A stretch of 36,589 bases of DNA from contig JAJDBE010000286.1 of the NCBI GenBank assembly GCA_029261515.1, positions 1 through 36,589 on the forward strand. The letters run 5' to 3'. Both the position numbers and the translations under genes were made by a program. This document shows positions 979 to 1,010 of the stretch, piece after piece. The notes beneath the pieces were generated by a model that made no database searches, was not told the origin of the DNA, and worked only from the letters and a program-made list of their open reading frames with translations. The stretch is from Nitrospinaceae bacterium (GTDB lineage Bacteria; Nitrospinota; Nitrospinia; Nitrospinales; VA-1). Numbering within the stretch: the stretch's first letter is position 1; each line of letters starts with the position of its first letter.

Positions 979-1010
979 ATTATAAACTCCGTACTTTAGT
1001 ACGGAGTCAA
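979..1010 (-). promoter_or_regulatory. MerR-type promoter with mer-like operator
   Basis: On the minus strand a -35 TTGACT (1005-1010) and a -10 TATAAT (979-984) are separated by 20 bp instead of the usual 17. The spacer lies within a perfect hyphenated dyad, ACTCCGTAC and GTACGGAGT with 4 bp between (986-1007). Over-long spacing with a central dyad is the hallmark of MerR-activated promoters, and the CCGTAC/GTACGG half-sites are those of classical mer operators. Transcription would start at about position 972, the A of the regulator's ATG. Confidence 0.85.

Follow-up and report, generated by a model that had tools for sequence, protein, structure and literature searches.

How does an operator of the mercury-resistance type come to stand before an arsI gene, with its −10 element so close to the start codon of the regulator? 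The question is raised by one locus of the window, which is the whole of contig JAJDBE010000286.1 (36,589 nucleotides; host genome 3.25 Mb in 308 contigs). On its minus strand a dimethylargininase-like gene (1814–1044) is followed after 71 bp by merR, then by arsI and the contig end (Table 1). We consider it rather probable that merR and arsI form an arsenic-resistance operon of two genes that activates itself, with a MerR-family protein rather than the usual ArsR in control.

Table 1. Positions of the promoter elements and genes of the merR-arsI locus within the window.
Feature	Position	Strand	Basis or remark
−35 element TTGACT	1005–1010	minus	TTGACT also in 48/56 listed arsenic-context lineage promoters
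Mer-type operator dyad ACTCCGTAC-TAAA-GTACGGAGT, inside 20-bp spacer	986–1007	minus	sequence match
Spacer, 20 bp	985–1004	minus	sequence
−10 element TATAAT	979–984	minus	sequence
AGGGTC, 6 nt from −10 to ATG	973–978	minus	predicted transcription start is the A of the ATG at 972
merR, MerR-family regulator, 140 aa; C83, C118, C128, C133, C140	550–972 (ATG 970–972)	minus	ORF, Pfam, model
arsI Shine-Dalgarno (SD) AGGAGG	540–545	minus	sequence
arsI, C-As lyase of the ArsI/CadI VOC family, 132 aa	135–533	minus	NCBIfam NF041414

A preliminary description had placed a mer-type operator with a 20-bp spacer at 979–1010. These coordinates are exact, and the minus strand there reads TTGACT-N20-TATAAT around a mer-type dyad, a spacer length within the 19–20 bp of MerR-family operators. 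Within the window the dyad is the sole match at up to three mismatches (shuffled windows average 0.01), and in the 3.25-Mb genome it is the single exact match, with one further site at three mismatches. An ordinary promoter with a 16–18 bp spacer was rejected for merR, a scan having given none on the minus strand near 972, and a plus-strand terminator at the dyad was rejected since the genes on either side are both encoded on the minus strand. The further claim that one promoter serves both the regulator and an ArsI/CadI-like gene also held up: arsI starts 16 nt past the merR stop with a strong SD in front, and its product scores 136.4 bits against the ArsI/CadI model NF041414, over the equivalog cut-off of 116. 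The contig stops 134 nt beyond arsI, and the operon is seen only as far as this gene. Positions 1–60 are a G-rich, low-complexity contig end and may be an assembly artefact.

The regulator belongs to the MerR family by PF13411 (MerR_1; 64.3 bits, cut-off 21.6) and PF09278 (61.5 bits, cut-off 25.4), and is the one match to PF09278 in the host genome at E ≤ 0.001. Like its relatives from mer operons, it might respond to Hg(II), or to a wider set of Hg, Cd and Pb, with the ArsI/CadI-type enzyme serving a general soft-metal response; a cadmium link of ArsI/CadI relatives is carried in the family name. The mer type of the operator is consistent with this, as are the three metal cysteines of the Hg site, C83, C118 and C128, all of which are kept. 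The best named model is the Hg-responsive MerR equivalog TIGR02051 (130.5 bits), and among solved sequences the best match is Tn501 MerR (5crl; 1.5e-26). The TIGR02051 score is however below the cut-off of 150.85, and the ZntR (TIGR02043; 115.2 bits, cut-off 167.95), CueR (99.8 bits, cut-off 147.4) and CadR-PbrR (TIGR02047; 99.1 bits, cut-off 151.45) equivalogs are likewise missed. Moreover, no mer gene is present in the operon as far as the contig end. The predicted structure of the regulator (pLDDT 87.8) matches those of CadR, PbrR, MerR and CueR, with CadR and PbrR on top; in the model C83 starts the long dimer helix, C118 follows the same helix and C133 sits on the last short helix.

Related regulators were compared as 210 distinct MerR cores from 241 loci. 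Those scoring at least 165 bits, a line placed after a gap between 167 and 162 bits was visible, form a lineage of 69 distinct cores, 64 of them from the Bdellovibrionota set. In a 126-row tree, which has few columns and a bootstrap that had yet to settle, 71 rows lie on one side of a branch with support 100/99, namely the 69, the long-branched L157 and L210, whose truncated core falls below the 165-bit line and which is in the lineage by the tree; the window MerR lies inside a 30-row arsenic-context group (94/87). Its nearest relatives outside its own phylum include those from a Bdellovibrionaceae MAG (L032, 56% identity), Bacteriovorax sp. BSW11_IV (L037, 55%), a Deltaproteobacteria MAG (L033, 54%) and a Bdellovibrio MAG (L034, 52%), where the operons are merR-arsC-acr3 (L032, L037), merR-arsI (L033) and merR-arsC-acr3-arsH (L034). 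No other MerR in the 77 genomes of its own phylum exceeds 49% identity to it. With profile A2, built from the window MerR and these four relatives, 84 of 368 genomes of Bdellovibrionota (the phylum of Bacteriovorax) gave matches at E ≤ 1e-35, and some of these 84 may carry only non-lineage MerRs; this phylum was sampled as 30 loci and the next 40 ranked places. The phylum of L033 (5 genomes) has a lineage copy only in L033 itself, and no lineage member was recognised among 31 loci from viral contigs or among the best 5000 plasmid records, all below 60% identity. The MerR of the NT-25 plasmid (L143) is outside the lineage by the tree; genes for an arsenate reductase, a regulator and a transporter of the MFS type lie near it. 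A plasmid MerR match from Manganitrophus adjoins metal ATPases.

The gene neighbours argue against mercury as the signal. At least one of ArsC, ACR3, ArsI, ArsH, ArsM, ArsA and ArsD is encoded within 3.2 kb of 59 of the 69 lineage members, and at least two in 48. Downstream on the same strand we find ArsC in 51 of the 69, ACR3 in 39, ArsI in 18, an aquaporin-type channel in 10 and ArsH in 9, and more rarely ArsM (1) or ArsA and ArsD (1). These labels derive from single query sequences, and a sample of them was checked by NCBIfam and Pfam: ACR3 (399 bits, cut-off 283), ArsH (375, cut-off 292), ArsM (370, cut-off 263) and ArsD (120, cut-off 90) lay over their cut-offs; two ArsC sequences had arsC models as best match, yet reached 140 and 149 against an equivalog cut-off of 174; the sampled ArsA is a fragment (451, cut-off 650). 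ArsR-like matches occur near three lineage loci (four matches, from two query sequences). Among the 141 other cores an arsenic-type match was found in six, all to the ArsM query (25–156 bits, with L085 scoring highest); these may be general methyltransferases.

The other ten lineage members favour the mercury reading, since a MerC-like gene lies near nine of them and a metal ATPase near one (L217); the lineage is thus not purely arsenic-associated. The MerC-like label has 43.1 bits to Pfam MerC (cut-off 27.6) for L211. A single branch inside the lineage (support 93) unites nine rows of mercury or ATPase context, with L234 loosely placed beside it, so that neighbours switched between arsenic and mercury at least once. 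A predicted leaderless branch consisting of L211, L214, L216, L217, L219, L220, L224, L232 and L236 has the −35 element TTTACT instead of TTGACT; this branch adjoins a thioredoxin-like/MerC-like fusion gene, and an ATPase gene in L217.

The metal loop (columns 118 to 128) has nine residues in 69 of 69 lineage members and eight in 50 of 54 outgroup rows; nine-residue loops occur outside the lineage in 4 of the 54 and in E. coli ZntR. Cys118 is present in all 69 members. Cys133 is found in 55 of 59 arsenic-context lineage rows, compared to 4 of 10 other lineage rows and none of the 54 outgroup rows. Cys128 is replaced by Tyr or Phe in a 14-member branch (L226, L227, L229, L233, L235, L237–L239, L241, L244–L247 and L249), which keeps Cys83, Cys118 and Cys133 and still adjoins arsenic genes. 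In a branch of four (L221, L223, L228 and L231) Gly takes the place of Cys83, so that the Hg-type inter-subunit site is gone, while Cys133 is kept and the genes stand in ars operons. Two of these four, L223 and L228, have a GTG start 6–7 nt from the −10. Since both branches keep Cys133, we propose a site made of C118 and C133 together with C128 or C83 of the partner subunit. Cys133, the longer loop and the persistence of ars operons in branches without Cys83 or Cys128 all speak against sensing of Hg(II), or of Hg, Cd and Pb broadly, which we regard as unlikely. From the gene neighbours and the cysteines we infer that arsenic is the sensed metal.

With regard to the start codon, the −10 ends 6 nt ahead of the ATG, a distance from which the sequence predicts a canonical +1 on the A of that codon. 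The merR ATG and the conserved LTIGKLA have no further in-frame start codon (ATG, GTG or TTG) between them, and no SD is found at a usable distance before this ATG. A leaderless regulator mRNA had been predicted from the window, and as a prediction it stands, the spacing being kept through the MerR lineage. The dyad and the −10 were located in all 69 members; the spacer was called as 20 bp in 67 and read as 20 by eye in L240 and L248. A fixed rule, by which the dyad and −10 are found first and an in-frame start is then required 5–7 nt on, gave 63 members (ATG at 6 nt in 54, at 5 nt in 2 and at 7 nt in 5; GTG in 2). In L240 and L248 the rule picked up a shifted −10; adding these two by eye brings the count to 65 of 69 (59 of 69 with a first start-calling script). 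In L032, L033, L034 and L037 the ATG is 6 or 7 nt from the −10 in all four cases. The four exceptions, L199, L226, L227 and L235, have leaders of 17–20 nt with AGGAG or GGAG.

Among the 141 other cores the dyad was found in 83, of which 10 have a start codon at 5–7 nt; for 65/69 against 10/83 Fisher's P is 8e-27, a loose value because the sequences are related. Six of these ten have ATG, one being the truncated lineage member L210, and four have GTG or TTG. In L055, L060 and L076, which belong to other groups outside the lineage, an ATG lies 6–7 nt past the −10, and the short spacing may therefore have arisen more than once. The spacing is kept in the lineage while the bases vary, with 43 different hexamers among 52 stretches between −10 and ATG. 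The position just ahead of the ATG holds a pyrimidine in 47 of the 52 (35 T, 12 C, 5 A), as for an initiator. Of 59 short-spaced members, 4 contain an SD-like 4-mer, in every case within a TAGGAT −10; among outgroup members whose leaders are longer the figure is 64 of 85. Judged by this comparison of sequences, the promoter layout of the window merR is one case of a conserved regulatory arrangement, a design that recurs. ATGNNN is common as the 6-nt stretch (L183–L187, L191, L194, L198, L200, L202, L205, L206, L208 and L215); here an untranscribed in-frame ATG would stand two codons early, and automatic annotators may pick the wrong start.

If transcription instead began further upstream, for example by read-through from the gene at 1814–1044, the merR message would have a leader and the 6-nt spacing would be incidental. 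That gene is near and on the same strand, and no minus-strand terminator-like site lies in between, except at 1091–1076 inside the upstream coding end. Such a leader would however leave unexplained why the distance to the ATG is exactly 6 nt in 54 of 69 members and jumps to 17–20 nt with an SD in the exceptions. Together with the pyrimidine at −1 and the lack of a usable SD before the window merR, this makes a leader improbable in our view. Leaderlessness as a mere habit of these genomes was rejected because SD-like sites precede the ATG in five non-lineage MerR paralogues from three of the same Bdellovibrionota genomes (by eye), and because non-lineage Nitrospinota MerRs have leaders of 16–26 nt where the script resolved the promoter. 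A −10-like hexamer 6 nt before the ATG is nevertheless seen for 3 of 180 host genes and for 5 of 158 and 2 of 180 genes in two Bdellovibrionota genomes, so leaderless messages may exist for further genes of these genomes, and the rejection of a genome habit is only partial. In the host, 35% of 180 genes have an SD (crude gene caller). For the gene that follows merR, an SD-like site accompanies a start in 51 of the 69 lineage members; none was seen in 12, and 6 have no start within 40 nt. For the window we infer that transcription starts at the A of the merR ATG.

Whether the regulator activates this promoter or simply represses it, as CvkR does at its targets, bears on the same layout. CvkR is a MerR-type repressor translated from a leaderless mRNA (in the part of PMC9938897 available), and repressors of this kind thus exist. 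A 20-bp spacer with a centred dyad is on the other hand the layout of MerR activators (PMC4486848, available part), and it is found throughout the lineage, in 67 of 69 members by call and in the other two by eye. A plain repressor without activation at the merR promoter seems to us quite improbable.

The NCC of the window ArsI, the product of the output gene, aligns with the ACC of 5d4f, a solved ArsI-type protein, and contains the vicinal cysteine pair that we take to be arsenic-binding. At eight other arsI loci of the window's phylum, ArsR is encoded directly upstream in five, and none is seen in the available stretch of the other three. No acr3 match was found in the host genome at E ≤ 0.001, a point against the arsenic reading, since the As(III) from ArsI activity would lack that pump. 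Another host locus (L269) carries an ArsM-like methyltransferase gene near an ArsR-like gene, and the host may thus make methylated arsenic for ArsI to break down. The window ArsI is closest to ArsIs encoded beside lineage MerRs (L225, 62%; L221, 56%; L215 and L228, 54% each; L033, 52%), and at most 42.5% identical to the ArsIs compared from its own phylum. The segment 135–1010 has a GC content of 46%, against 51% for the whole window. The simplest reading is that the merR-arsI pair probably reached this Nitrospinota genome jointly, from a Bdellovibrionota-like source.

We suggest that in the absence of inducer a MerR dimer occupies the over-long promoter and holds its activity low. The thiolates of C118 and C133, joined by those of C128 and/or C83 from the partner subunit, would bind a trivalent arsenical, either As(III) or an organoarsenical, and the arsenical-bound protein would then distort the promoter, letting RNA polymerase initiate at the A of the ATG. 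As the first cistron would be leaderless, the yield of regulator would probably be low or tied to the state of translation. The second cistron, arsI, would be read from its SD at higher yield, giving an enzyme that would cleave C-As bonds. A broader proposal, which we put forward tentatively as a serious possibility, is that a distinct, unnamed MerR subfamily evolved arsenic sensing and replaced ArsR in many Bdellovibrionota, with the RNA start fixed on its own start codon. Its traits would be the nine-residue metal loop, the added Cys133 and sites that survive loss of Cys83 or Cys128. Translation would be leaderless for the regulator and SD-dependent for the effector, forming a two-level circuit in which ribosome state sets the ratio of regulator to effector.

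In the text available to us, a 2018 review of arsenic genes gives ArsR as their regulator and 'MerR' is absent (PMC6205960), and a 2015 review of sensors assigns Hg, Cu and Zn to MerR and As to ArsR (PMC4486848). In Pseudomonas pseudoalcaligenes arsI is clustered with arsR (PMC10138600, available part), and MerR-family proteins appear only in other roles in the available parts of PMC7965956, PMC5670224 and PMC11212059. A search of titles and abstract openings, whose coverage mostly leaves out subscription papers so that an earlier description is possible, found no MerR-family regulator of ars genes. CvkR is the one MerR-type protein that these sources document with a leaderless gene (PMC9938897). 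Against these sources, a MerR-type arsenic activator would, if true, be a second solution beside the ArsR-family As(III) switches and a new part for biosensors. What the comparison across relatives adds to the preliminary description is the spacing kept while bases vary and a lineage that is mostly in arsenic operons. Sister branches with arsenic or mercury neighbours are a few cysteines apart, which makes MerR metal selectivity directly testable, and the near-fixed leaderless spacing with four natural SD-leader members forms a comparative set for asking why a leaderless regulator message is kept.

Compared to known systems, the regulator shares with the MerR of mer operons (Tn501/Tn21 and Gram-positive types) the fold, the mer-type dyad between the −35 and an over-spaced −10, and equivalents of Cys83, Cys118 and Cys128. 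It differs in falling under the equivalog cut-off, in a loop of nine residues rather than eight and in Cys133, and its operon differs in having arsI as output gene and no SD leader. With ZntR, CadR and PbrR it has the fold in common, and ZntR also has nine residues between the loop cysteines; here, however, all named cut-offs are missed and no P-type exporter gene adjoins merR. CvkR is likewise the product of a MerR-family gene whose start codon is the transcription start, as predicted in the window, but according to the part of PMC9938897 available it represses a CRISPR-associated transposon from another operator and belongs to no metal-resistance operon. The ArsR-arsI operons, as at five of the eight other arsI loci of the phylum, resemble merR-arsI in having a small regulator gene before arsI in the same operon; in the window a MerR-family protein takes the place of ArsR, and the promoter is of the activator type.
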